Shown here: piece after piece, positions 19,141-64,000 of the stretch | Layout of the letters: the number at the start of each line of letters is the position of its first letter | How positions within the stretch are numbered: position 1 is the stretch's first letter | NCBI GenBank assembly: GCA_010279815.1 | Contig: QEOQ01000508.1 | Location: 2,418,457 to 2,482,456 of the forward strand | Source: Brachionus plicatilis | Taxonomy: Eukaryota; Rotifera; Eurotatoria; Ploima; Brachionidae | Length of the DNA: 64,000 bases | Reading direction: 5' to 3' | The notes under the pieces: model-generated | What the model saw: only the letters and a program-made list of their open reading frames with translations | The model's database searches: none | Told to the model about the DNA's origin: nothing | Program-made: the position numbers and the translations under genes

Positions 19141-20640
19141 GAAAAGTTTTTCCAGGGCAGTTCCGAATGGCAGAGCCTTCTTTTCAGCCCACATGGTTGC
19201 AATATGATTAAGATATATATTAATTATATGTGTATAATTATAGTAGAAAAATTAATATCTAGATTTTATAAAAATTGTTAAATTAAATTTTTGCTAAGAG
19301 TTTGGCGTGTTAATGATTGAATCAAAGGGTGTTTTGTACTTTAAATTGTTTCTGGAGGAGTTTTGAAGCAGAAAGTCCTGGATCTCCTGAGCTATTATTT
19401 CATGACTTTGCCTTGTGGTGATAAATTTAGAAAAAAGCTTGTTTGCTCTGTCATCAATCAAGTCGATTCTTAGCTCTTTGTGGATTGTTTTGATTCTTGT
19501 CTTTAGTGGAAAATACTTTATGATTCGCAAGACTCGATTTTGCATTTTTTGCATTTCGGCTCTTATGTTCTGAGTGCCTGACTGAAGTATTATAAAAGAG
19601 TAGTGGAATAATGATCGTATGAGCGACATGTATAAAATTCTGTTGATTTTAAAAGATGATCTCCATTTAAAACTTTTAATTTTCCTGATTAGGTTTATTT
19701 TGGAAATTTGTTTTGAATTGATAATTTTCAAATGTTCTTTGTAGTTGATTTTGGGATCTAGTTTAATACCAAGGAATTTTGGATTTGGGTCAAGAGGAAT
19801 ATGTGAGTTCCCAATTTTTATTTTCATTCCATATCCTTTCTCATAATTTTTTCGAAGGCCAGCTTTGGTAAATGTTGTGTAGCAAGTTTTTTTTTCGTTA
19901 ATTTTAAATCCCCATTTTTTGCAGTACTCAACGATTCTATTCACTGCCTTTTGAAGAATTATCTGAATTCCCTTTTACTGGTCCTGGATGCCCAGATACA
20001 GAGGTCATCTGCGAACAAGGCTATTTTAATATCTGAAGGAACACTATTTGCTATATCGCTAAAAAACAGAATGAAAATGGTAGGGGATAGGCAACTTCCC
20101 TGAGGGACTCCACATTTAATAGACTTATTTTTTGAAGTTTGGCCATTATAGCTGACTCTGAAAGAGCGGTTTGTGAGAAAGTCTTCAATCCATCGGAGAA
20201 ATATTCTATGAAGATTGTGTTCTTTTAATTTTGCAATTATACCATTGTGTGATGTTTTGTCAATGGCCTTCTCAAGATCGAAGAAGATAGCTCCTGTTAG
20301 TTGATTGCGGTTGAATCCATCTTTTATTGATTGGTTTAATCTCAATATGTGATCTTGGGTGCTTTTGGATTTTCTGAAGCCAGATTGACTAGTTGGTAGA
20401 ATTTTTGAGTTTTCTGCCCAGTCTTGAATCTTTTGATTTACAATTTTTTCGAGCCATTTGGCTAAGCAACTGAGGATGGAGATCCTGTAACTGAGGAGGG
20501 CCTGTAAGAGTCTATACTATCTGGAGGTTTATTTTTTTAAGAATCATGATAATTTTGGATTTTTTCCAAATTGAGGGTATGTGGCCATGATTAAGAGAGT
20601 ATCAGTTAAAATAGATATATAATTTTATTGCTGACAATTT
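19141..20640 (-). mobile_element. LINE ORF2 reverse transcriptase, frameshifted copy with 3' end
   Basis: On the minus strand the RT motifs run in order: HIPSIWKKSKIIMILKK near 20590-20540, SYRP, ILSCLAKWLEKIV, SQSGFRKSKSTQDHILRL, motif A (AIFFDLEKAIDKTSHNGI), motif B (GVPQGSCLSPTIFI), the catalytic motif C FADD (IALFADDLCIW) and the thumb (KFLGIKLDPKINYKEH). Frameshifts occur near 20500-20540 and at 19945-19958, so this copy is dead. It is also 5'-truncated, as no endonuclease is seen. The 3' UTR ends around 19141-19205 with GGCTCTGCCATTCGGAACTG, a motif shared with four other loci in the window. The class is Jockey/CR1-like LINE; the exact clade is uncertain. Confidence 0.85.
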
Positions 20641-42549: not shown

Positions 42550-42850
42550 TTAAGCAAATTTCTTACTACTTGTCTCTGAAATGAGAATGTCTACGAGCAC
42601 TGGACTGTAACTGTTTTGGGGCACAAACCAATTTACAGATGGCACTTTATTTATCAAAATAAGCTCCCCTCTTACAACTCTTTCTTCAACTGATGTCCAA
42701 TTGAACTTTGCCAATCGTTCCTCACAATTTAGGCCTTTCACTGATCGCACCAATCTAGTTGCTTTCCTTTGATCAGATTCCAACACTTCAGTATCCTTCT
42801 TAAGATGCGATTTCCACGCTTCAAATTCAAATTTACTTTCATTTTCTTTT
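42550..42850 (-). mobile_element. LINE ORF2 C-terminal fragment
   Basis: The minus strand reads FEAWKSHLKKDTEVLESDQR, KATRLVRSVKGLNCEERLAK and TSVEERVVRGELILINK. The pattern E-x-x-Q-R-x-A-T-R-L-V, E-E-R-L, R-x-R-G-D/E-L-I is the post-RT region of Jockey/CR1-like LINEs. It is truncated at both ends. Confidence 0.7.
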
Positions 42851-42974
42851 TTTCAAATTTATATTCAACTTTTTTTGATTGCACCAAAAATGTTTTTTAT
42901 TCTATCTCTTTAAATCAAATGAGGACTAGAGAGAAAACATAAACCCATTTGGAAGAGTCCTAGGGGCATGTAGC

Positions 42975-43115
42975 TAAAAATTTTAGTAAAATAAAATAAA
43001 AATTTTAGCAAACAAAAAATAAAAATTTTAGTAAAATAAAATTAAAAATTTTTGTAAAAAAAAATAAGAATTTTTGTAAAAAAATAAAAATTTTAGCAAA
43101 ATAAAATTAAAAATT
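42975..43115. repeat. Tandem array, about 24-bp unit
   Basis: AAAAATTTTAGTAAAATAAA-like units repeat about six times with small variation (TAG to TTG, GTA to GCA). Confidence 0.7.
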
Positions 43116-47751: not shown

Positions 47752-48345
47752 TAAAAATAATAATAAGCTACGGCAAGCAAGCTTACGGAAGCGGTCAACT
47801 AGGAGATCGCCTTTGGTAGCACATTGCGCTATTAAAGGAAAATTACAGAAATAAGAGAACTGATAAAATTATGGAGGCAAATAGACATTATTGTCAAATT
47901 TGTTATACAATACATTATACAAATAAAAAGTAAAAAAATTGAGATGGAACTGAGAGGGCTATACTTTAAAAAAATCAAAATAAAATTTAAATAAAAATTA
48001 ACATGTGGTTAAACCTTGATGGCCGGTCATAAAAGCATCGTAGCGATTCTTGAATTGATTAACTAAGTCGGAGCTTGTGACCGCAGAGGTCAGGGCATTC
48101 CACTGATTGACAACCCTGTTCGTAAAGGAGTTGGCCCTCTGCATACACTTGGTTGTGCCCTGGCCGGACAGTCTCCTCGTGTGCCCCCTGATTCCTCTAG
48201 CCGGCCCGACTAGGGATAGTGAGCTGCTGAGGACCTGGGGATTCGCCCAGCTCACTTCGTTGATGCCATTTATAAGCTTGAACTGTTGGATCATTTCACC
48301 TCGTGCACGGCGCTCGTGAAGGGATGGCAAGTTTAGAATGGATAA
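47752..48345 (-). mobile_element. 5'-truncated LINE: ORF2 C-terminus, 3' UTR and (TTA)n tail
   Basis: The minus strand encodes LPSLHERRARGEMIQQFKLI, NGINEV, then RGHTRRL and FTNRVVNQWNALTSAVTSSD, LVNQFKNRYDAF before the stop at 47998-48000. This is the classic C-terminus of Jockey/CR1-like ORF2 (R-R-x-R-G-D/E-M-I and F-x-N-R-V-V-N-x-W-N-x-L). The 3' UTR continues to about 47752, ending GCTTGCTTGCCGTAGCTTAT and a TTA-repeat tail shared with 27330-27413 and 28585-28677. Confidence 0.8.
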
Positions 48346-48485: not shown

Positions 48486-51400
48486 TAATCTCAATGACAA
48501 AATTAAAAAATAAAAATATTGTTGAATAAAAAAATTTATTTTATTGAAAAATTTAAAATAAAGATAAAAAAATGAAAAAAAAAATTGCAGCATACTCTAA
48601 TTTCGCACAATTTTTAAATAAAAATCATAATAATTTGTTCCATGCTATCCAACAGAAAAATTGGGATGGTACTCATCTATTTTTCCAGTAAATTTTTGAC
48701 CGACGGCTTCAATCTGAGACAAGGGTTTTCATTTTATGCTTGTATGAATTACACTCGACAATACACCTTTCTACCGAAAATAAAATTTTTCAAAGACTCG
48801 TTAAGAAAAAAATAAAGTATGATTTTATTTTTGATTTGCATTGTAGAGGTGCTAGTAATGCAGACCTCTCTCCATTGACAGCAACTAGTGCCAGTATCTC
48901 GTAATGTCCAAAGAAAAAACAAGAATAACACACAAACACAATAAAATGAATAATTTCAAAAAATTTTATCTATTTCAAAAATAACCTCAAAATACCGTTC
49001 GATTTTTTCAATTTAAACCTTTAAACTATTAAAAAAAGATATTTTGAATTTTATTATGTTGTATTTTTTTATAATAAAACCATTTCTTTTTTGGGCTTAT
49101 TTTACTTAAAGTTGCAAAATTTTCTTTTTAAATTTAATGACTTTATATTTATTTTTTTTGTGATCGTTATTTTTGAAATAAATAAAAAAAATAATTTACT
49201 TAAAGAAAGAAATTAAAGATTTAATTTCTGTTATCTTTTTTGCTACTTTGCGTTTTTTTCATTTATTTTGTAGGGAATTTAAAAAACGCCTAAAAATTTA
49301 AATTTAACAAAGGCACTTGATAGCTTTTTAAATTATAATAATTTAAATTTTGTTTTTTTGTTGGCTTTTTTTTTTGGTTTAATTTTTAATATTCTCATTG
49401 TCTAAACCTTCATAAAATTTTTCAATTACATAAGGACTAACTAATGACTCTTTCGATGATGTTTCTAAATTCACGAGATCTATTAAAGGGTCAAAAAAAA
49501 TACAAAATTTTTTCAATTTTTACACTTTTTATAATTTTTTTTGAAAATTGTCTTAAAAAAATATAATACGAGAATTTACGTAAATTATTTTTGATTTTTT
49601 AAGTTAAGAAAAAAAGTTAGATATTAAAAAAATATGTATTTAATTAGTTAAATATCAAAATTAAAACCATTAAAATAATTTAGTTATTTTTACCAGACAA
49701 ACCAATAAAATAGAATAATAAAAATAATAAAAAATATGGAGACTGGTAGTCTCAATCCATTATCCAAATTTTTTAACTTAAATGTATTTTTTAAAATGCA
49801 ATTTGTTACAAATTTCTTATTACAATTTGAGCGAACTGGAATAAGCATCCTTTAAAACCGATTCTTCAAAAATAAAATTCTTATCAATAAATCAGTACTA
49901 TTGCAAATTCTTAAGTCAATCAGAGTGAATTTAACAAAAAGCCTGAATTTTCAATCTACTTTTCTTTGAAGTAAAAAAGTTTTTTATATATCGCATCAAA
50001 AAAATTTTGAATTTTAAAAATAAAAATAAATTTTTTAAATGACAAAACCATCTTTTTTAATTGACAAAAAATCTAATTTAAAAAATATGAAAATACTTAA
50101 TTTTTGCTAAAAATAGTTGCTAAAATATTTATTATTTATTTGTTTATCTGTGCTAAGGTAAAGCTCCTTCAGATTAAAAAAGGTAAAAAATTAATCGTGG
50201 GATTGTATAAATGGGAATACCAAATTTTATTTCGAGATTGAAATTATATTTTAATATTAAAATGGGATAATAACTTTATAAAAAACAAAAAAATTAAAAA
50301 TTTCGAAAACTTAATAAATTCTTAAAATTTTATAAAAAAACTAAATAAAAATAGTTAAATATTGATAAATATTAAGAAATTAAGTTGTGAAAATCTTTTC
50401 TTTAAATAAAAAATTAAAAATAAATCTTGATCTTTAAAATTCTTCATAGTCTTTCATATTCTCGACTGAGTACCATTTATTTCTCTAATGACACTTCTGG
50501 CCATGGACTAGGACATTTGGCAGCTCTGATTTAGGTACTTTATTTTTCCATTTGGCCAGCAAAGATTCAATTTGTTTCAGTTTCTGATGCTTTCTTAAGC
50601 AACATAACAGGGTACTAACTCCGTGGATTAAGTTTTTCGGCTGTTAGCTAAGTTTCCATCTTTAAACCAATATTACTTTCTTAAATTCTTTAAAGTAGCT
50701 CTTTGCCAGAGTTGGTCAAAATGGATAAAAGTCAAAGTCTGACTTAATCTTGGTGTTCTTATAGAACAAATACTTTCCCAAATTTTAATTTATTTTATTT
50801 AAAAAAAATTTTAATTTATTTGATTTTGATTTAAATTCGATAATCCCTTGCAGTAAAGAGAGCATTTTATTACTTGAAACATGAAAAACACTTTTAGACT
50901 AATTGAATAAATTGAAATTTAAATACATTTTTTGTATTTTTAATTTTTGAATAATTTTATAAAAAATGAAAAATACAATTGAGGTAATAAGTTAAAAAAA
51001 TATTTTTTCGTTCAAGGATGTAAGGTAATTTTAAAAAAATTCCATCATTTGTATTCATTAAACTATAAAATATAACGAAATAAATAATTTTAAAAAGCAA
51101 ATGTAAATATATTAAGAATTTGTTTAGAATTTATAAAGAATGTTTTTAAAATTTCTTCAAAAATTAATCTTTAATTTCTAATGGTCAGAAAATTAGTTTA
51201 CTAATGACTCTGAACCCAGAAAACACTTTTGAATTTACTAAAAAATTTCTCATCCATAAGATAATATTTAGAATGCCTACCATGTTGAGAGAGATTGACA
51301 AGTAAATTTCCTAAAGCTATAACAGCTACACAAAGCGCACGAAGCTGGCTTATTTTTTGAAAGAAAATTAAATTGGACAATTTTGAGTTTTTGTAAAATA

Positions 51401-51640
51401 AATAAAACTAGGTTCATAACAAATAAATTTTTTGGTGGATTTTTAAATTGTAAAATTAAAAAACTTATTAAAATATAAAAATTTTGTAAAAATATTTTTT
51501 AAATTTTTTAATTTTTATACATCATGATTTAAGGAAAGTATATTTCCAAATACATATATATTTCCATTCCAAATGCACCTTAAATGTTAACTGCGCTATA
51601 GCAGTCGTTTTTTTTTGTTTCGAAATTAAAACATTAAGCT
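48486..51640. other. AT-rich stretch, no gene supported
   Basis: A minus-strand run of about 38 codons ending at 50491 (LRKHQKLKQIESLLAKWKNK) looks coding-like but is isolated. CAGAGTTGGTCAAAATGG at 50709 is a solo end of the 21949 MITE family. Confidence 0.4.
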
Positions 51641-52140
51641 TCGCTATGAAACTTTAAGCTCTTTGTGTTTAACACATCTTCCGGGAGTTAGTTCCATCCA
51701 TTCCATTCACTACTCTATTTGTAAATAAGTGAAATCTTGGAAGACATATCTTTATTTATTCACGTGTTAGGCAATAACTGTTTCAACTCAATTCATAACT
51801 TCGACCAACGGATCTTGTATTTAGTCTGTAGTTGATTTTTTTATTAGAATTAATTTTTTATAATTGTAACCCTTGATCTCCTTGTTCTCAGATAAGTTAA
51901 TTTTAGCATTGACAAACGTTTTTGATTATTCATATCATGCAGTTCAAGAATCATCTTTGTTGCTCTTCTCTGAACTTTCTGAATCTCATTCATATCTTTT
52001 TCAATATAAGGACTACATGCATTGGCAGCATACTCTAGATCTGATCAATTGAAGGATTACATCGTTTCCTGGTTTTGAAATCAAAAACTGGCAGAGGCGA
52101 AGAGTCATCTGGGCAAAAAACTGATCTTTGGTTACTAAAA
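51640..52140 (-). mobile_element. Decayed LINE ORF2 C-terminal fragment
   Basis: The minus strand reads FFAQMTLRLCQFLISKPGND near 52110-52050. A frameshift follows, then LEYAANACSPYIEKDMNEIQ, KVQRRATKMILELHDMNNQK and RLSML, then stops, then FTNRVVNGMDGTNSRKMC near 51700. The order matches the ORF2 C-terminus, and multiple frameshifts make it dead. Confidence 0.75.
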
Positions 52141-52789
52141 TTTTAACATAAAGATGTTTGCTGATGAAATGACAATAAACCATTTAGATAAAGACTTGGA
52201 CAGTATTTTAATTAATCAAAAAGCAAAAAGCAATTTATGTCCAAATTAAATGAAAATGGTACCAAATGTGCTTTTTACAGAATTCAAAAAAATTAAGTAT
52301 TAACAAAGTTATGGTCTTTTTGCTTAATTAATTTTTCATCAATCATTAAAGGTTTTAATAAATGGTGTTCTTATAACAAGATAGATATTAATTTTTCCAA
52401 AACATTTTTAAAGATTATTATTCGAAAAAAAAGACTACATTTTTTTTAAGATTGATATTTGTAGAAATGATTTACAAATGGTATATGAAATAAGTCTCTT
52501 GAGTTTTAAGATCGATCAAAATCTAAATTTTTCAAAACTTCCCTGCAAAATTATAACAGTTTTTTTATGTCGTATTTTAAATATTTTTCAATATTTAAAT
52601 TTTTTAAATTTTGATTTGAAGTTAATTACCACAATGAAATTAGCAACGTTCTAGAAAACTTACATTTGGCTTTCATTCTTTTCAGCATAGAATTCATTAT
52701 TTTGCCAATAAAGAAATATTTTTCCTTGAAGCGCTTGAAAGTTTAAGTATGAAATCAAATCAATTTTTAAGCTATTGACAATAGATGTA

Positions 52790-53660
52790 GTAACATTCTT
52801 TTTATACTTTTTGTACTTTTTTTTTTAAGTCAAAGTCAAAGTCAGTTTCTACCCAAAAAAGGATGTACTTTTTGTACTTTTTTATTTAAGTTAAAGTAAA
52901 AGTTAGGTTCTACCCAAAAAAAGATGTACTTTTTGTACTTTTTTTTTTAAAGTCAAAGTCAAAGTTAGGTTCTACCCAAAAAAGGATGTACTTTTTGTGC
53001 TTTTTATTTTAAGTCAAAGTCAAAGTTAGTTTCTACCCAAAAAAGGATGCACTTTTTGTACTTTTTTTTTTTAAGTCAAAGTCAAAGTTAGTTTCTACTT
53101 TTTAAAATTTATATTTAGCCTTGGTTTAAATAGATATCCTTTTTTAAATTTCTTGGTATAGAAAAGACGTAATTTTTATTCTATTGTATCTTTCCCTATA
53201 TTCAAAAAACCCGAATTCCCTAAAGCTCTTTTATTTTTATTTTGTTAAAACGAAAATAACCCTTTAATTAACCCTAATTTGACAAAGCTCTTGACGTCTT
53301 ACGACGTCAATCGCTCAGACAAAATATGGTTAATTAAAGGGTTATTTTCCTTTAACTAAGCTAAAGTTGAGAGAACGTCCTTTAAAGACTAAAGCTAAAA
53401 TAAAATTTTTAAAAAGTACAAAAAGAACATTCTTTTTTGGGTAGAAACTAACTTTGACTTTGACTTAAAAAAAAAGCACAAAAAGTACATCCTTTTTTGG
53501 GTAGAAACTAACTTTGACTTTGACTTAAAAAAAAAGCACAAAAAGTACATCCTTTTTTGGGTAGAAACTAACTTTGACTTAATATAAAAAGTACAAAAAG
53601 TACGTCCTTTATGGTGTTTTATTGTCAAATAGTACAAACAGTACATTCTTTTTTTTAAGA
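52790..53660. mobile_element. Foldback-like element: inverted arms built of about 61-bp tandem repeats
   Basis: The left arm (52800-53100) has four to five direct copies of a unit containing AAGTCAAAGTCAAAGTTAGT, TTCTACCCAAAAAAGGATGT, ACTTTTTGTACTT. The right arm (53395-53610) has about four copies of the same unit inverted. The middle (53222-53390) carries a second inverted pair, AATAACCCTTTAATTAACC against GGTTAATTAAAGGGTTATT. It also has the GC-richer hairpin GACGTCTTACGACGTC at its centre. The structure matches foldback (FB) transposons. No transposase is seen. Confidence 0.8.
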
Positions 53661-53782
53661 CTCTTTATGGTTTTTAAGTTTTTAAGGGATAAAAAGTTTT
53701 TAAAAGGATTCTTTTTTTTTATTGTCAATAGATGCAATTTTTTGAATAAAAAAAATTTTTATTCAAAAAATACATTATTTTT

Positions 53783-54051
53783 AAACTTACATTATTTTTT
53801 GTAAGCTTACGTAAACTTACGTGAATATTAATTGGTAAGAACATGTAACTTTACGTAAAATTACGTAAGCTTACATTAAAAAACGTAAGTTTTAGTAAAA
53901 TTATTCCGAAATGCTTACGGCCAAAAAAAATTAGGTTTTTGGTAAGAAAAATGTAAAAATTGACGAAACGTAATTTTATGTAAAATTACATGTTCTTACC
54001 AGCTTATATTCACGTAAGTTTACGTAAGCTTACAAAAAATAATGTAAGTTT
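53783..54051. mobile_element. Palindromic MITE with ACGTAA words
   Basis: AAACTTACATTATTTTTTGT, AAGCTTACGTAAACTTACGT at the left is mirrored at 53999-54051. GGTAAGAACATGTAA is likewise mirrored. It may extend to AGCACTGTA at 54086, which recalls the end of the 26393 element. Confidence 0.7.
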
Positions 54052-54309
54052 ACTTAATTTTACAAATTCTGGACCTTTTATAAAAGCACTGTAGGAAAAA
54101 TAACCAATAGGAAAAATTCAGGCATAAATTACGCAATATTAAAATAATTAATAAAAATCAAAATTACCAAAAGCATATTAACATGGTTCAAATGGTAACA
54201 GTTTATTTTTGAAATAAAAAAGTAATACTCAGTAGGAATATGAGAAGTAAAATGAGAATTTTTTAATGCAATGTTATATGGGTAGCTGAGGAACTTTAGT
54301 AAGATCCGA

Positions 54310-54450
54310 TGACTTTGACTTTGATACGATTGTTTCAACATCTCCAAGATTGAGTGCCGTCTTTTTTTGGTTTTCTTAATTTTTGATATAGATGGTTATC
54401 ATAATAAAGGATCAATATCCACCTTTATTGGAGGAAACCAATTCAAGTTA
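54310..54450 (-). pseudogene. Remnant of a FLYWCH zinc finger
   Basis: The minus strand gives LVSSNKGGY, a one-base shift, then LYYDNHLYQKLRKPKKDGTQ, SWRC and TGA. The pattern S-x-K-G-G, L-x-Y-x-x-x-x-Y, W-R-C is the first half of FLYWCH zinc fingers, which often accompany Mutator-like transposases. It is isolated and broken. Confidence 0.5.
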
Positions 54451-54780
54451 ATGGCTCATTTTCAGTTTTCAATTTTATTTTTAAGGAGATAAGACTATTT
54501 TCAAATTTTTATATTACTCAATGACAGTCAAGCCAAAAGTAACTTAAAGTAAAGGTTCTCAGAAGTGGTGAAAATTTTAGTGCCAGAGAAATTTTAAAGC
54601 AAAGGTGCAAACAATTAATTTTAATCAAGAATTAATTATTTTATTTTATGTTGATTTACTGTTTAATGACAACATTTTCACACATCAGCTTAAATAAATA
54701 AATTTCTTAACTCCTCCTTAAATTTTCGGTAATTAAAAGAATTTTTTTTCGTATTTTATCTTTTTTTATTTTTTAACTTA

Positions 54781-54840
54781 TTCTGAAGAATTTTAGCTCG
54801 GTACAGAAAACAAATAAAAAATAAAATACTTTTAACTTTT
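54781..54840 (+). mobile_element. LINE 3' end matching 18016-18060
   Basis: TTCTGAAGAATTTTAGCTCG, GTACAG and an AAATAAAAAATAAAA tail repeat the end of the LINE fragment at 17535-18060. It lies 330 bases upstream of the eIF1A-ORF1 gene, on the same strand. Confidence 0.6.
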
Positions 54841-55168
54841 ATTTTAAATAATTATGAATTAAATATAAATTTTTCTGATAAAAATTTTTCCTATATTCAA
54901 AAATTTCATTTCATTTGATTATCAAGTTTTGCCTCAAAATAAGATAAGTAGGTAAAGTAACTGTTTTTATACATTTATAAAGGCAACTTTCTTCAAATTA
55001 TTCTGCAATAAATTAATATTTTATTTTTTTTTATTTATTTCATTTTGCGCCAATTCTGGCGATGTATTAAAATTAAATAAAAAAAAGTAAAAATGTAAAA
55101 AGTAAAATCTAAGACAGAATAAAATTAATATATTTAAATAATTTAAATTATTCATTTATTCATTTAGA

Positions 55169-56065
55169 ATGATAAAAAAGAACAAGAAAAAAGAAATTAA
55201 AAAAAAAAAACAAATAAGCTTTCAAAATTTGATTCGTGCTGATCCAGGACAGTCATATGGCGTCGTTTTTCAAAAACTTGGAAATGGATGTCTTAGAGCT
55301 ATATGTTCTGATGGTGATATTCGAATTTGTCATATTCGAGGAAATTTAAGAGATATTCATTTTAGACTGAGTGACTTCATATTAATTAGTATACGAAACT
55401 TTCAGGACAAAGTAGCTGATATAATCACAAGATACTCAAGAGAAGAAGCCATATTCCTTATTAATGATGGTGAAATACCAAAATATTTAAAAATACCTTT
55501 TTTCGAATTAATTTCAAAGCAAAGTTTTAAGAGAGAACTTAATTACACAAGAGAATTTTTTCTAAAATCAAAGCCAAGCTTTAGCAGAGTGGACCCTTTT
55601 AAAAATTCTGCAAAGATATCAGAAACTCAAATGAACTTGTGTTCGAGAAAAACTGCTGAAGAAAAGGAACAACGCAGCAAGAATGTAATTATTTTTGGTA
55701 TTGATGAGTCAGAAAGAATTGGAGTTGAGGACAGATACTGCGATGACAGAAAGAAAATAGAAAGAATATTTAATGATCTAAAAATTGAGCTAAATAAAAT
55801 AGAGAAAATAATACGCTTCAATAAAAAGCCAAATAGCTTGCACAAGTCGCCAATTCTTGTTGAACTAAAAAGTGAGCAGGACAGAAATTACTTTTTGTAT
55901 TTTGCCAACCGGCTAAAATATCTTCCAAATTATTCAGGAGTGTTTATTATTATTAGTCGTGATCTACCTATTGCTGAGAGAGAAACAAGATTTAAATATC
56001 AAATGAAAGAAACAAGTTACAAAAAAAAAAGAAAAAGCGGTTTTTTAGTCCGGACAGCAGACTGA
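55169..56065 (+). CDS. eIF1A domain fused to a LINE ORF1-like domain, 298 aa
   Basis: One intact ORF starting at ATG. After a Lys-rich N-terminus, residues 27-110 match eIF1A, the translation factor of the 43S complex. Landmarks are GQSYGVVFQKLGNGCLRAIC (27-46), DGDIRICHIRGNLR (48-61), the second half of the OB fold with FQDKVADIITRYSREEA (78-94) and GEIP (101-104). The acidic eIF1A C-tail is missing. Instead, a linker leads to residues 170-298: KNVIIFGIDESE, DDRKKIERIFNDLKI, SPILVELKSEQDRNYF and GVFIIISRDLPIAERETRFK. These resemble the conserved C-terminal domain of LINE ORF1 proteins (NVVIFGL..ES, V.L....R, VFI..DL...ER). An ATG follows 21 bases after the stop but reads only about a dozen codons, so no ORF2 is present. 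It may be ORF1 of a LINE that captured eIF1A, or a retrogene chimera. Whether it is expressed is unknown. Confidence 0.8.
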   Translation: MIKKNKKKEIKKKKQISFQNLIRADPGQSYGVVFQKLGNGCLRAICSDGDIRICHIRGNLRDIHFRLSDFILISIRNFQDKVADIITRYSREEAIFLINDGEIPKYLKIPFFELISKQSFKRELNYTREFFLKSKPSFSRVDPFKNSAKISETQMNLCSRKTAEEKEQRSKNVIIFGIDESERIGVEDRYCDDRKKIERIFNDLKIELNKIEKIIRFNKKPNSLHKSPILVELKSEQDRNYFLYFANRLKYLPNYSGVFIIISRDLPIAERETRFKYQMKETSYKKKRKSGFLVRTAD

Positions 56066-56739
56066 AAAGATTTAAAATGGCATCCAACATTGAAAAAAAA
56101 ATTAAAAAAAACTAAACATAAAAATTATACTTAAAAGTATGATACAGTTTATTCGAAATTTTTCAAAAATATTATCATTAAAAATAAAATGTTTTATAAT
56201 TATATATTAATAAAAAGAATTATACAATAAAATTATCACTTAAAAGTATAATTTTTTAAACCGCTTTATGAAAGGAGCTTTAAATTCCATTATTTTTTAT
56301 GCAGTCTTTTGAGTCACATGCAAATTTTTTTTACATATTAAAAAACGATTTTGGGATATTTGGCTGATTAATTGCTGGAAATGGTAAATAAAGGTATACA
56401 GTCTACAACTCCAATTGCTACAGTTGCTTTTAGAAAGCAACCAAGCACTGAGCCTGATTCACCTCAAACATTAGCAAAAAAATTTCAAATTAGATTATAC
56501 AGTATGTTACAAAAGTTTAGAAATTTATTTATTTGTTAACACAAAGATTGTTTTTATGTATATAAAAGGCGGGAAAATTTTTATCTGTAATCAATCCAAA
56601 AAAAAAATTAAGTAAAAATAAAAATCATAGAGAAAATTCAAAAAAGGAAAAAAAGCTATACAATTTAAAAAAAAACTCGTTCAATAGTTTAGAAATTTTT
56701 ACAATTTAATTTTTACAATGAAATGACTGCCTTTGGCCT
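56066..56739. other. AT-rich spacer after the eIF1A-ORF1 gene
   Basis: CTTAAAAGTAT occurs at 56130 and again near 56240 in CACTTAAAAGTATAATT. No ORF2 sequence is recognisable. Confidence 0.4.
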
Positions 56740-57640
56740 TAAAACCAAGCTAAAACTCTTTTTGGCATTGATTCAATCAATTTTTGTACGTACTCAGTCG
56801 GAATCTGTAACCACTATTTGTGTAAAACCTCTTTTAAATGCTCAATAGAGGCTACTTTAGTGCTTACCATTTTGGCATCCATGTATGACCATCTTGTTGA
56901 AAAACCCAAGGGTCATTTGATTCAAATAGGAGTTCAACAGATGATAAAAGATTGTTTTCCAAAGTGTTAATGTTGACAAATTGATTGATTCGTCCTGTAT
57001 AAATGTTGCATATACCAGTGTCTTTGTAGGAAATGCATCTCCAGATACCAGCTGACCCTCCACCGTTTTGTAACCTTGGTATACAGAACTTCTGGTGAAA
57101 CTTTTCATTTTTAGACCTTTTTACGATTACTCTTGATTTACGATTAAAGACCTAAAAATTGGACTCGTCACTGAAAATAACTCTGGATCAATTATTAACT
57201 GGCCAATTAAGTCTCTGTTTACACCACTTATATCTTTTTTGTCTATCTTTTGTGTTAAGAAGCGGTTTTCTGACCGCTGTATGAGACTCCAACCCCTTTT
57301 TTTTGGAGATGTCTCATTATAGTATACTTACTTATCCTAACCCCTTGAGTCTTAGAATTAAAATCAGTGGCGAGTTTTTTATAACTAGTTATAGGATCTT
57401 TTCTAATCTCTCTAAAAATGTAATTTTCATCCCTAATAGCTTCCGAGGTCTACCAAAACGGCTTCGATCAGAGACAGAAACAGTCTCTTCATATCGTTTC
57501 TTAGTTGAAGAGACAAATTTTGGAGATACACCTAACAACTTGGCTATTTCGTTTTGCTTTTTATCTCCGCTTTTTAGCAGACCCACGATCTGCTATTTTT
57601 GTGGGGTAGACACATTTTTTTTTACCCATCTTTTGCCAAA
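56740..57640 (-). pseudogene. Tc1/mariner-type transposase, decayed
   Basis: On the minus strand, the N-terminal HTH (57590-57440) reads LKSGDKKQNEIAKLLGVSPK, FVSSTKKRYEE and GRPRKL. IMRHLQKKG follows at about 57305, then RQKRYKWCKQRLNWPVNN and VIFSDESNF with the catalytic D of the DDE triad (about 57140), then VSGDAFPTKT and FFNKMVIHG-region sequence. The C-terminus IPTEYVQKLIESMPKR is at about 56800-56755. Stops and frameshifts separate these pieces, and the PDLNPIE segment with the last acidic residue is missing. TIRs were not found. Confidence 0.8.
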
Positions 57641-57894
57641 TTAAAGATTGTTTGGTAATGTTACTCAGAGACCAAATGAGTAGTTTAATAGCAAAATTTA
57701 CTCAAAATTAGAAGATATTTAAGAATAATTCATAAAGGTGTGAAAAAGGGAGTATTAAAATTAATTTAGCTAATTTAACAGGGTATAAATAGATTTTCAA
57801 TTTAAAAAAAAATTTATTTTAGAAAATTTCGAAACATTAAGTAAACAAAGAACAGTTAATAGGAAAAAAAATAGAAAGAATCATTGTTATTAAC

Positions 57895-58260
57895 TCTGCC
57901 ATTGGCCGGTCCCAAGCCCGGATGAAAAAAGAGGAGGGGTGATGATGATGCAGGCGCATAGAGGCCGGGATGAGGAGGCTTGCAAGCTAGAGCTGATGAT
58001 AGTCTGTTGGGTCCAAGAGCCTTAGTGAAAAAAGTAAAGTGTCTTTAGTTTGGATAAGCTTGTATCCAAATATAGATACGCTTGGTTTGTGGTTCCAAGC
58101 TAGTCTAAATAGTTGCCGAGTTCGCAGCCATTAAGTGCTCGGATGAGTGGCGCTGTTTATGATGAACGTCCCATATGTAACTTTGGCCGCTGACTGTTGA
58201 GTTGCAATCATACCGTTGCCGGTCCCAAGTCCGGATGAGAAAATGAGAGGGGTAAGGACT
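57895..58260 (+). mobile_element. GC-richer retroelement doublet with RTE-like 3' tails
   Basis: GCCGGTCCCAAGCCCGGATG at about 57906 recurs as GCCGGTCCCAAGTCCGGATG at about 58216. Both are followed by purine-rich GAGAGGGG-type sequence. The GGTCCCAAGCCCGGAT word is, as I recall, typical of the 3' ends of RTE-type LINEs and dependent SINEs in animals. The spacer is unusually GC-rich, with no ORF. Confidence 0.5.
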
Positions 58261-59649
58261 AACAGTGTGACTTGACAGATAAACACACGAGAAAAAAAAA
58301 GTTTATTAAATATTTATTTTGTTAAAAAAAAGATTCTTTCAATTAATTTTTTTTATAATAAATTAGAAGCATCGCCCATTCTCGTATACATATATTTTAA
58401 CATGGCGAACGGGTTTTGATTTTTTTTGTCAAATACAACCATGTTAAATTTTTGAAACTAATTTTATATATATATTATATTAATAAACCCATAAATTAAT
58501 GTTAGTACTAGTTTATTAGAATTAATAAAATTAGCGGTGAGGAAAATTATGGGCCTTTAAATAATGGTATATAATGAAAACAAATCGATCTTTACTTGCG
58601 GCAAATGCAAAAATTTACATATATTCCATTTGGGAGAAAGTTTTCACTTCTTACTGTTACACTTCTTAGTTTTCACTTCTTACTTTTAATTACTGTTACA
58701 GCCAAGGACTGAAAGTTTAGATAAAATTATATTTTATTTCTGATTAAAAATTTTTTCTTTAATTTTTATAAAAATTTATTTGTTAATAATTTTGCTGTTT
58801 TCAATTAAATCCAGAGTTGCTTAAAAGTCACAAGTTTTAAGTCAAGTCCAGGTCCGGATTTTGACTTTAATTTAAGTGAATTTGGTTTAAACTAGGCTTT
58901 TGGTTTAAACTTAGACTAGTGACTCTAAAACAACTAAGCTTAAATCAAGACATAATATTTTTGAAATAAAAAAAACAGCATTTTTTAAATAAATCTGATA
59001 AATACTTAAAAAATTCTGAATAAAAAATCCAGTTTATTTGTCTGTCTAAAAGTCAGTTCCAATTTTAAGGTTTTTTGGATCTCTTTAAGCTTTTACGTAG
59101 TAAAAAAAAACCGGTCAAAGAATTTTAAAGTGATAAAATCTAATTTTTAATCATGAAATTTAATAATTTAATTATTATTCTTTCATCCTTTAGAATCGGA
59201 ATTGAAATTTTTTTGTTTTTCTTTGAAGTTTTGCTCCAACTGAAAGTAAATCCAAGATGATGGAATGTACATCCTAAAACATAAATTAAAATCTATCATT
59301 TTTAAAAAATTCGTTTGTATCATCTTCGCTAAAAATTAATATTAAAAATTTAAAATTTTATTTTTTACTAATTTCTTTTTTTGTTTCCTTCATTTTTAGT
59401 TCTATTTTACCCCAAAAACGGTATTGAATTAATGAAATTCATAAACAAATCTAAATTTTGGATTCTCATAAAAGAAAAAATTTAATCAAGTCTAAGCATG
59501 CAACAAAAACATAATTTTTTTTTTAATTAAAATGTTTTGGTTACAATAATTTCTCAATCACTGAAAATTTTTCAAAGGTTGTGAAATTCTAATCGCTTAT
59601 AAAAACTTTTTCGATTTTATTTTTGCTATTTAAAAAGTATATTCAAAAA
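58261..59649. other. AT-rich spacer, no gene
   Basis: AAGTCACAAGTTTTAAGTCA at 58825 is a GACTT-family end related to 5092-5187. Nothing else is recognised. Confidence 0.4.
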
Positions 59650-61380
59650 ATGCCACCTAATAAAAATAAAAAGTTTTTGAAAAAAAATTCAAAAAAGACC
59701 TCGAAAAATATCAGACCGAGAAAAAGCCCCAATAAAGCCAAAGAAGTAGCAGATGAACCCCTTAATTTGGACATTAACAAAGACTCAACAGAATTTTTTT
59801 CCAAAAATGCCACTTTTGATCAACACTATGATGCCCAGTTGGCAAATCGCGAAAAATATCTAGCAACCATGATAGCGTTTGAAGAATACTCAATTGATTT
59901 GGTTCCTAATGCAAGATCAAGAGCTTTGGCTGCGGCTTTTGCTCGCAATGACAGTGAACTGATCGATTATTTTCTAAACAGCGAAAATGGATTTACCGAC
60001 GCTCTAAAGGCAGTAACTATTTTGGACAGTCAAAGACAGAAGAGAGCCATTGACAAAAAAATAGAGAGAATTGCCAAATCGGGAGCTGTTATTAAGACCA
60101 AAAAAATGGCCGAGATTAAAAAAAACATTCACAATTTAGAAGCTCTTAAGCCCAAAGCTGGATCGTTTAGTGGAGCTATGGCAAAAAAGTTTAAAAGATG
60201 GGTGAGAAAATTGGAAGCCAAAGATTTTGAATTTTTTGCCCTTTGCTTACCAACTGAGCCGTGGAAAAAAATGGCAGATCTATGCCATTTTAATTCAGAG
60301 AAAGACTTTCCAAATGCTCCATGGTTTTTGCCATTTTGTTTTGGTCAAAGTCCTCCTGAAGGTTCAAAAGTAGACAAATGTCGCAATATAACCAGTGAAA
60401 ATGTGAATCAACTAATTTCCGACTTTGACATTCCATATAGATTAGTGAAAAATTTTAAAACCTCTTTGAACAATCAATCGAAAAAAGTTATTGCTGAAAG
60501 ACAAGTTAAATTGGATACAATTTTGTGGTATTATGAAGATTTACATTCTCCTGAAGTAGATGACATAATTCGAGCCAGATTGGAAAGAGGCGAAAAAGTG
60601 GAATTGGGATATGGAAAATTAATGGAAAGACTTTTGTTATTTAAAGACTACATTGGAAAAAATAAGACTTTAAATTCAGAATCGTTGTTATCTTTATTAA
60701 TTCCCATTGCAGAGAAAAATCTGAAGAGCTTTCGTTCGACACTAGCATCACCTGTTGCTGTCCTGGGAGATGCAAGCAGCTCAATGAATGTGGCCATTCG
60801 AACATCCACCATCATTAGCTCTTTACTGGCAACTATTTGCGAAGCTAAATTATCTTTTTTTAATCACCAAAACTTTAAATCAACATTAGAGCCAAAAGAT
60901 ATAAAAGATGTTTTGCAAGTTGCCCATGATACCAGAGCAAGCGGATCGACTGCGCCGGCTGCTAGTTTGGTTCCATATTTCGATAATAAAGAAGTGATTA
61001 AAACTTTTATCATTGTTACAGATGAAGAGGAAAACACAAATGCAGAAACAAACGATAAAAAAAGCTGGAGATTTTTTGAGTTGTTTATGGAATACAGAAA
61101 GAATGTCTATCCAGCGTCCTTAATTTTTGTCTCATTCCTGAACCAACAGCACAGCGAAGGACAAATGTATAGAAGCTTTTTGAGGGAAAATGTACCAGAT
61201 GTGATGCAGTTTAAATTTTCTCGAGCAAGACCTGATTTGACAAAATTAGATTCAATTTTAGGTAGTATTTGTTCTAAGTCTTCAAAATCTTTCGCTGGTG
61301 ACTTGGAGAATATTGAATCGAATTTGAGATTAAATGGTCTGACCAAATTTTTAAAAGAGATCAATTTAAATTCATCATAA
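59650..61380 (+). CDS. vWA-domain protein, Ro60/TROVE-like
   Basis: An intronless ORF of 576 residues from the ATG at 59650; the frame is open nine codons earlier, but without ATG. A Lys-rich N-terminus (about 1-35) precedes an all-helical region (about 50-360) with RSRALAAAFARNDSELIDYF, WKKMADLCHFNSEKDFPNAP and FCFGQSPPEGSKV. The C-terminal von Willebrand A fold starts PVAVLGDASSSMN, with a complete MIDAS (D374-x-S-x-S). It continues with SGSTAPAASL (Thr about 434) and IIVTDEEEN (Asp about 458). Helical repeats followed by a MIDAS vWA is the Ro60 layout, and Ro60 binds Y RNAs and misfolded RNAs. Sequence identity to Ro60 is not obvious to me, so it could be another vWA family such as DUF2828-like. 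A cytoplasmic RNA-binding role is inferred only. Confidence 0.6.
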   Translation: MPPNKNKKFLKKNSKKTSKNIRPRKSPNKAKEVADEPLNLDINKDSTEFFSKNATFDQHYDAQLANREKYLATMIAFEEYSIDLVPNARSRALAAAFARNDSELIDYFLNSENGFTDALKAVTILDSQRQKRAIDKKIERIAKSGAVIKTKKMAEIKKNIHNLEALKPKAGSFSGAMAKKFKRWVRKLEAKDFEFFALCLPTEPWKKMADLCHFNSEKDFPNAPWFLPFCFGQSPPEGSKVDKCRNITSENVNQLISDFDIPYRLVKNFKTSLNNQSKKVIAERQVKLDTILWYYEDLHSPEVDDIIRARLERGEKVELGYGKLMERLLLFKDYIGKNKTLNSESLLSLLIPIAEKNLKSFRSTLASPVAVLGDASSSMNVAIRTSTIISSLLATICEAKLSFFNHQNFKSTLEPKDIKDVLQVAHDTRASGSTAPAASLVPYFDNKEVIKTFIIVTDEEENTNAETNDKKSWRFFELFMEYRKNVYPASLIFVSFLNQQHSEGQMYRSFLRENVPDVMQFKFSRARPDLTKLDSILGSICSKSSKSFAGDLENIESNLRLNGLTKFLKEINLNSS

Positions 61381-62240
61381 GATTGATTTACTTTAGCTTG
61401 CCATTCTATTAATTAGGAGATACAAAATCTTAGAAATAATTTAAAAAATAAATTTCTAAAAAATTTTTTTTATTTTTTCTCATTGTTTTAAAATAAAGAT
61501 AATCATCAATTAAAATTGATCATTCTTTTATTTTGATTTCGAAATTTTTTTATTATGACGATGTGGATATATTTAATTTGAATTTTTTGAACAAAACCAA
61601 ATAAAAAGAAATTTAAATATAAAGATAAATTTTTTGAAAAATTTTTTAAAGCTGGAATTGATTATAATTAAAATCATATCGAACTAAAGTTTTATAGAAT
61701 AAATCTACAACAAACTATTTAAAACTTTTATTTTTTATTCTTATCATTACTTAAAATAATTGAATAATTTATTTAGAATAGAATAACTCTTTTTTTTTGA
61801 ATTTGAGCGATAAAAAATTTGTTAATCATACTTGTTGTAGTGAAAAAGGCTGGAAATTGGCTTCAAATTACCTTTATGGTGAAAAGGCAAAATAAGCGTC
61901 TTGACCATAGTAATAGTTTCGTAATAACTGAAAAGGATTTTGTAAATTCAATTAACCAAGATTTTATATATGTTACTGTCAATTTATAGAATGTGTCATT
62001 TTGTAAAATGACTTAGCAAATGATAAAATTCTAGAGAAAATAAATTGTATATTCACAAAAGGCAGTCCGAGTGCTTTATTTTGGATATAATATTACCTCC
62101 ATGTTGTAAATAATTATTTCACTGTCGAAATTTATTAGTTGTAAATAAATTGTTGAAAATAATTACTTTTTGTTTAATTGAATTAGTTTATTTACTGAAT
62201 ATTTATTATTTTTATCTTTATTAATAAAATAATTTTGGGT

Positions 62241-62305
62241 TTTCCCAGGGTTTGTCCGAATAGCTTAGGCCTTCGTTTAAACCATCTTGTCACGATACAA
62301 TGTAA
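62241..62305 (-). mobile_element. LINE 3'-end fragment
   Basis: On the minus strand, GAAGGCCTAAGCTATTCGGA, CAAACCCTGGGAAAACCC match the 33541 copy and the 19141 LINE end. Confidence 0.6.
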
Positions 62306-62516
62306 AATATTTAGCGAAATTTTGTAGAAAATTATTATATAAAAAATGATTAAAAATTAAAAACAAAAAAAGAATAAAAATATTAAAATTTTAACTGAAA
62401 TGAGTTTGTTAAAATATTTAGTTTAAGTAGAAAATCATTAATCAAAATAAAAGAAAAGGGTTAAGAAAAAGAAAAATTTAAATAAAAATAGAAAATTTAT
62501 TTGATTATTGTTTAAC

Positions 62517-62602
62517 TTAAAATTCTTTTGTTTTTTCTTGTTTTGGAGCAACAGCTTTCTGAATATCATTAAGTAGCATTGCTAAAACCTTTTGGTTTAC
62601 TG
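62517..62602 (-). CDS. Probable terminal exon of an unidentified minus-strand gene
   Basis: After a good acceptor (ATTTCTTTAG), two bases complete a split codon. The frame then reads VNQKVLAMLLNDIQKAVAPK, QEKTKEF and TAA at 62517-62519. This looks like a genuine C-terminus. The upstream exons should lie to the right, perhaps outside the window. I cannot name the protein. Confidence 0.4.
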
Positions 62603-62814
62603 CTAAAGAAATAATATGAGAGCAATAATAATTTTTGAAATGAAAACTACAACTGCATCTAATCCTTGACCAATTATTACTATTAAATTGTACTTTTTAA
62701 AGCTGATTGAAATGAAATCAATTTGTTAAATTTTTTTATCTAATTCTAGTTTATTTTATATTAAGATAATTTGAAAATTTTTAATCAAAAACACCCTAAC
62801 TTTTCTAATAAAAA

Positions 62815-62905
62815 ATTTACTAATAAGAGGGCTGAAAAGAGGGATTAAACCGCTCGAAACTGCCCCGGAGTCCAACTCCTAAATTATTTTTCAAATAAAT
62901 AAATA
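62815..62905 (+). mobile_element. Possible retroelement 3' end with (AAAT)n tail
   Basis: AGAGGGCTGAAAAGAGGGAT, TAAACCGCTCGAAACTGCCC, CGGAGTCC is a GC-rich patch ending in AAATAAATAAATAAA. GGCTGAAAAGA recalls the start of the 19141 LINE 3' motif. Confidence 0.4.
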
Positions 62906-64000
62906 AATTATATTAAGATAATGTAATCGAAATTTAACTTAATAGGATTTATCTATTAAAACCTAATTTTTATTTTTTCATCATAAAGTAATTATTTTGA
63001 CAAAAATAAATAAAATAAACAAAAACTAATTAATTTCAACTTGTTAAGTTAATTTTTTTGTCCAAAATAGAATTTTTATTCTTTCAACAAAAATTAATTA
63101 ATCTCATAAGAAAGTAATTATATTCGAAGAACACGTAATTAACAGCCTTTCTTTTGGGCATAGTTAAGAATTTATAAAGAGATCTTTTGCTATGAGAAAG
63201 TCTTTTCGAAAAATTTTAATTTCATTTCAAGTTTGGCTTGAAATGTAATGGAAAGATTTTTCAATAAAAAAATTTGATAAATTAAATTATTAATTTAGAG
63301 TATTATTTAATTTTTATAAAATTTAAATTTAACAAATGATTTTATAAATGAAAATAAATTTTTGAGTTTAAACATTACAATTAACTTATGGTAAAGACAT
63401 TAAAAATTAGTTATTCTGATTTTTTTTGAATTTTTAAAATGCCTGGTCTAAGAAAAAAGAAAAGTTTAATTATTTGCCTAGTCATTTTATAAATTGACAG
63501 TGACATATACATGAGATTTGACAAATTTATATCATCATTATTTAATGGAATCATTAAAGGACTACAGCATTGTTTTATTAAATAAGCATCATTGGACCAT
63601 TAGTGTACTAGTTGTTACTATTTAAAAGATTATCATTGCTTTTATATTATTGCTCTAGCCGTGAGTCAGAAGATAGTTGAAATGCCAATTAAGTAAATTA
63701 GGTGTTCTGTTGTAGCTAAAGCTAAAGTTTGTCGGAAGGCAAAATACAAAATATGTTTAGAAATGTAAAAAAACAATTTTATGTTTTTACTAATTAATTA
63801 AAATTTGGAGATAAAAAAAATATTCATCAAAAAGAAATAAAAATCGACTAACTAATTGAATAGTTTAAACAATATTTTTGTAAAAAAGTAATTATTTCTG
63901 AAATACAGGTAATATTTTCTGGTTTTTAATTACTAAATATTTAAGGTCTTAATAGTTATCTAAAATTTAAAAAATTTTGATCGCAATTTTAAATCATAAT

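Follow-up and report, generated by a model that had tools for sequence, protein, structure and literature searches.

An eIF1A-like fold joined in frame to part of a LINE ORF1 in Brachionus plicatilis: a single-copy locus that looks more like a host gene than a retrotransposon

When one intact reading frame combines a translation initiation factor with the RNA-binding protein of a retrotransposon, the question arises whether a mobile element has captured a ribosome factor, whether a host gene has absorbed a piece of the element, or whether no gene of either kind exists and the join is accidental. Such a frame is found in the window, i.e. the whole stretch of 64,000 nucleotides analysed here, the source of which is Brachionus plicatilis or a very close relative. 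An earlier sequence-only reading had described it as eIF1A captured by a retrotransposon and had named a domesticated host gene as the alternative. The parts of the frame are the following:

55169..56065, plus strand: intact fused ORF (P0001) of 298 codons and 298 aa, from the ORF list; protein P0002 is 97% identical over residues 21-287
55169..55498, plus strand: eIF1A-like part, residues 1-110, with basic N-terminal tail and OB fold (Pfam, solved structures, alignment)
55499..55564, plus strand: junction, residues 111-132, with weak likeness to the start of the eIF1A-2 tail (weak alignment to eIF1A-2)
55565..56029, plus strand: LINE ORF1-derived part, residues 133-287 (genomic matches, L009, alignment, predicted fold)
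55946..55954, plus strand: ATT-repeat stretch, two residues longer than in P0002 and in the aligned LINE ORF1s (alignments to both)

The join of the eIF1A and LINE ORF1 parts is real. Both halves are detected independently within the intact ORF, as had been proposed, and the frame stays open through the junction for 307 codons from stop to stop. The same two halves with the same junction are present in P0002, a 265-aa B. plicatilis protein from a separate record, which starts at residue 21 of the fused ORF and is identical to it at 258 of 267 aligned positions. Beyond its first residue, P0002 differs by 6 substitutions and a 2-residue gap in all (1 substitution in residues 22-130, 5 substitutions and the gap in residues 131-287), and from these differences it appears to stem from another assembly. 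With this fusion on record in a second, 97%-identical B. plicatilis protein, an assembly chimera is unlikely, and the possibility of an assembly error near the junction, named at the outset, is not supported by a record that spans the same junction with differences. Since P0002 keeps the family spacing at the gap, the two extra residues of the ATT repeat are probably new in the present genome. No fused copy besides P0002 was found in the protein database searches, which covered proteins between 0.55 and 1.75 query lengths with shared 5-residue words and in one case scored only the 7995 candidates with most shared words, so that ordinary short eIF1As and distant fusions could escape.

In the first half, a full eIF1A OB fold had been proposed for residues 27-110, and this is borne out by a Pfam search, in which PF01176 matches residues 27-88 (E 1.4e-9, 37.9 bits versus a cut-off of 30.2, profile positions 1-64 of 64), as well as by solved structures of human eIF1A, which match residues 10-110 (E 2.7e-20); clear eIF1A similarity reaches residue 110. 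With canonical eIF1A (EIF1AX, PF01176) the fused protein shares the OB fold, the LGNG...CHIRG core and the basic N-terminal tail, whereas it is devoid of Trp69, of the Lys-Lys pair and of the acidic tail, and bears a LINE-derived RRM. In the alignment to the structures and to the two other eIF1A genes of the genome, both of which keep Trp69, His64 occupies the place of this invariant residue; of the Lys-Lys pair preceding it, only one position remains, occupied by Asp62, the other having been deleted. According to PMC6122471, Trp69 lies on the ribosome-binding surface and stacks on an adenine of the decoding site, and a W69A mutant shows nearly normal 43S assembly together with disturbed start-codon recognition. 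The acidic C-terminal tail with its eIF5B-binding end had correctly been recognised as replaced: residues 111-298 are made up of the linker and the LINE part, and no leftover eIF1A tail was found downstream of the fused ORF.

Three PF01176 loci were found in the genome, namely the fused ORF and two eIF1A genes (eIF1A-1 and eIF1A-2) on contig C42, to which the eIF1A half is 50% and 47% identical over 86 codons. The pair on C42 (L027:1221-1733, minus strand, and L027:5756-6316, plus strand) consists of uninterrupted coding frames which lie about 4 kb apart, point away from each other and are 69% identical over 86 codons; the minus-strand gene is diverged yet has Trp69.

The eIF1A part has evolved under amino-acid constraint. 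Over residues 21-106, the 86 codons to which the codon test is confined, identity to eIF1A-1 at codon positions 1/2/3 is.62/.78/.31 against a random expectation of.27/.28/.26, and identity to eIF1A-2 is.55/.77/.42. GC content at the three positions amounts to.456/.356/.156, compared with a third-position GC of.478 in eIF1A-1; third positions have drifted to AT and the first two have been held. The dN/dS check that had been suggested was run on the eIF1A branch of the fused gene and gave about 0.10 (2dlnL 12.5 in the test against 1), a ratio that is rough given saturated third positions and reference branches of about 18-25 in length, and that assumes a star tree of three genes. Neutrality is rejected for this branch, as 0 of 37 null simulations reach 2dlnL 12.5. 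The period of constraint may possibly be older than the fusion.

For the second half, LINE ORF1 C-terminal signatures had been placed in residues 170-298. The identity of this part stands, supported by genomic LINE relatives and by an L1 ORF1p-like fold; its start has to be moved forward to about residue 133, since L009, the closest LINE copy, aligns from residue 134. An alignment to eIF1A-2, and to this gene only, continues at low identity up to its residue 153, with a weak run to about residue 130 of the fused ORF. Pfam recognises no domain in the LINE half; the predicted fold of the C-half finds its best match, ranked first, in the RRM of human L1 ORF1p. Type II LINE ORF1 proteins, described for the L1, CR1, L2 and R1 clades in PMC4120745, consist of a coiled coil, an RRM and a CTD. 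The fused ORF shows the type II order from RRM (core at about residues 172-263) to the start of the CTD, and its alignment with type II ORF1s includes a common PDLT.AER-type segment. In contrast to them, its N-terminal region is eIF1A and the YGIR-type tail is missing from its frame. The N-terminal region of the LINE relatives gives weak matches to coiled-coil proteins (E 0.01 and above, the label being read from protein names), and in the alignment its place is taken by eIF1A. Compared with 13 LINE ORF1s, the LINE half shows identities of.42-.52,.54-.65 and.32-.40 at codon positions 1, 2 and 3, in which constraint after the fusion is not separable from constraint inside active LINEs.

Elsewhere in the genome the C-half is matched 49 times, with E<=1e-3 in 34 cases, and 19 of the 49, those to which the ORF2 count applies, were fetched with flanks. 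Ten of these 19 precede long ORFs (long frames made of N runs, e.g. in L019, being left out), and all four long ORFs that were scanned encode endonuclease/RT; L023 has an additional ORF of 518 codons, placed between its ORF1 and the long ORF that was counted. The same ORF1 type is joined to an endonuclease domain in the B. plicatilis protein P0003. The fused ORF, in turn, is single-copy at both the DNA and the protein level in genome searches that score the best candidates only and, for DNA, skip very common words. An eIF1A domain turned up with none of the other 49 matches to the C-half, the remaining PF01176 loci found being the two C42 genes only, and a very permissive search for eIF1A beside L009 gave chance-level matches only among the matches listed.

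At the 3' side, the end of the frame and its surroundings comprise three further features:

56021..56030, plus strand: A10 run, the probable exit of the reading frame from the ancestral LINE ORF1 frame
56062..56085, plus strand: out-of-frame remnant LKRFKMAS, matching LKRFKTAS in the L009 tail (shuffle test)
56192..57752, minus strand: remnant of a Tc3-like DNA transposon that bounds the fused gene at its 3' side (identity to L032, PF01498)

Against the L009 tail, the score of LKRFKMAS is reached by only 15 of 2000 shuffles; against L010, L011 and L012 the out-of-frame tail is not significant (421, 1175 and 1048 of 2000 shuffles). The terminal YGIR-type tail of LINE ORF1s is lost from the frame, and the similarity to L009 suggests that the ancestral LINE tail probably lies out of frame at the C-terminus. 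Taken with the ATT-repeat difference between strains, this probable frameshift gives the C-terminus signs of drift. The Tc3-like remnant matches L032 at 92.5% identity in 56192-57287 and at 81% in 57592-57752, and PF01498 is matched in the fragment 57258-57449 just under the cut-off (E 4.6e-7, 30.5 versus 31.5 bits). It had been suggested that full-length LINEs be sought behind such fused ORFs. Unfused C-half copies do precede endonuclease/RT ORFs, but behind the fused ORF a search of 50000-64000, thus as far as the window end, with the ORF2s of 10 other LINE copies as queries found no same-strand ORF2 match at E<=1. Its upstream flank gave only short matches among the best 40 of 797 candidates.

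LINE fragments elsewhere in the window lie upstream of the fused gene, all but one on the minus strand. ORF2-like fragments occur at 19519-20513, 42589-43005, 48028-48345 and 51591-52089 (all minus strand), positionally unrelated to the fused gene; RVT_1 is matched in the stretch 19959-20516 (E 1.7e-27). A 585-codon ORF at 59623-61380 (plus strand) gave no significant Pfam match for the residues from 59650 on.

The reading that we prefer, with a probability of roughly 57%, is a single-copy host gene in which a third, diverged eIF1A paralogue continues in frame into the RRM and a portion of the CTD from a type II LINE ORF1, presumably yielding a two-domain RNA-binding protein. On the host side, the history would begin with this diverged paralogue; a LINE copy lacking its 5' part would then, most likely, have inserted in the sense direction at its 3' end. 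Truncation at the 5' end is common when LINEs insert (PMC4120745), and truncation within ORF1 followed by a sense landing would produce exactly the observed order of parts; the rest of the LINE, including ORF2, would have been lost later. The product would hold two RNA-binding folds and lack the coiled-coil-like stretch found ahead of the RRM in the LINE relatives, and its most likely role would be that of a host protein binding single-stranded RNA, possibly LINE RNA or rRNA. A host gene that absorbed a LINE piece fits better than a LINE that captured a ribosome factor: the domesticated host gene of the sequence-only reading agrees with a single copy and with the failure to find ORF2 downstream, whereas capture by a retrotransposon fits less well with these findings and with two eIF1A genes as the only other PF01176 loci.

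Having lost both the eIF5B-binding tail and the residue in contact with the 40S decoding site, the fused protein is probably no longer a standard initiation factor. Recruitment of ribosomes or of the 43S complex, which had also been considered, appears doubtful because Trp69, the neighbouring lysine pair and the acidic tail are gone; the W69A mutant, however, still assembles 43S complexes nearly normally (PMC6122471), so that 40S binding could survive the loss of Trp69 by itself.

As a class, host genes fused to transposon proteins are familiar, and the pairing of an initiation factor with a LINE is apparently new: judged by titles and abstract openings, no prior report was found of a core translation initiation factor joined to a LINE RNA-binding protein. 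In SETMAR, a SET methylase is fused to the Hsmar1 transposase, the host gene having been extended by a transposon integrated downstream (PMC6326780, according to its summary). The fused eIF1A gene resembles it in its proposed making, a host gene lengthened by a transposon; SETMAR, however, involves a DNA transposon and its function has been studied, whereas here the element is a LINE and the gene is known from its sequence alone. The EKA genes of powdery mildew, with more than 1350 homologues, derive from LINE ORF1 (PMC4641428, abstract) and likewise encode a protein from part of ORF1, but they form a large family, and that abstract mentions no fused host domain. The locus suggests that a paralogue of an initiation factor can have its tail exchanged for LINE sequence by an insertion that keeps the frame. 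If expressed, it would offer a natural test of whether the eIF1A fold can take on a new use after losing the decoding-site tryptophan and the tail.

Among the competing explanations, the one that survives best, though clearly less probable than a host gene, is a young non-functional chimera, i.e. a LINE fragment in frame behind a diverged eIF1A copy that has not yet collected stops. The probable C-terminal frameshift and the strain difference in the ATT repeat agree with it, and the lack of stops by itself is compatible, at P=0.05, with a neutral divergence of as much as about 4.9% per site, the 6 substitutions from P0002 corresponding to about 1% if neutral. It is opposed by the long constraint on the eIF1A half, though this may predate the fusion, and by the expectation that a recent insertion should leave a recognisable ORF2 downstream unless deleted; none was found. 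It is unlikely that a LINE lineage exchanged its coiled coil for an eIF1A domain as a means of drawing in the small ribosomal subunit, with the locus as its lone remnant: eIF1A does sit where the LINE relatives carry their coiled-coil-like region, CR1/L2 LINEs are documented to have exchanged ORF1 domains (PMC4120745) and LTR elements of bdelloid rotifers have acquired extra ORFs (PMC5408684), but no other C-half match was found with eIF1A, no ORF2 was found behind the fused ORF, and the protein has lost Trp69, the Lys-Lys pair and the acidic tail. A further, likewise unlikely reading is a Brachionus regulator in which the eIF1A OB fold, deprived of its decoding-site residue and tethered to a LINE RNA-binding domain, would bind LINE or other RNA and compete with or divert the small ribosomal subunit, thereby interfering with LINE translation or canonical eIF1A. 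An artefact of assembly or annotation, or two genes on separate transcripts sharing one frame by chance, is very improbable, as the A-rich homopolymers in the ORF and the start of P0002 at residue 21 are outweighed by the divergent second record and by the open frame across the junction.

Two observations on the LINE relatives may be added. In 7 of the 19 fetched copies (L016, L018, L020, L022, L023, L026 and L028), ORF1 and the next ORF share one frame with a single stop between them (TGA in four, TAG in two, TAA in one), while the ORFs overlap in L010, L013 and L017. In L016 and L018, respectively, the endonuclease match begins at aa 66 and 48, and the first Met comes only 79 and 56 aa beyond the stop, within that match, which suggests stop readthrough or a non-AUG start for these two. 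L023 and L024 read TAG CAATCA at the stop, a context which we take to be tobacco-mosaic-virus-like. Titles and abstract openings yielded no literature on point for the single-stop arrangement. Finally, the LINE ORF1-like protein P0007 shows a PHD-finger match ahead of its ORF1 RRM region, weak at 18.5 bits against a cut-off of 24, and in this it resembles the PHD-bearing type II ORF1s summarised in PMC4120745.
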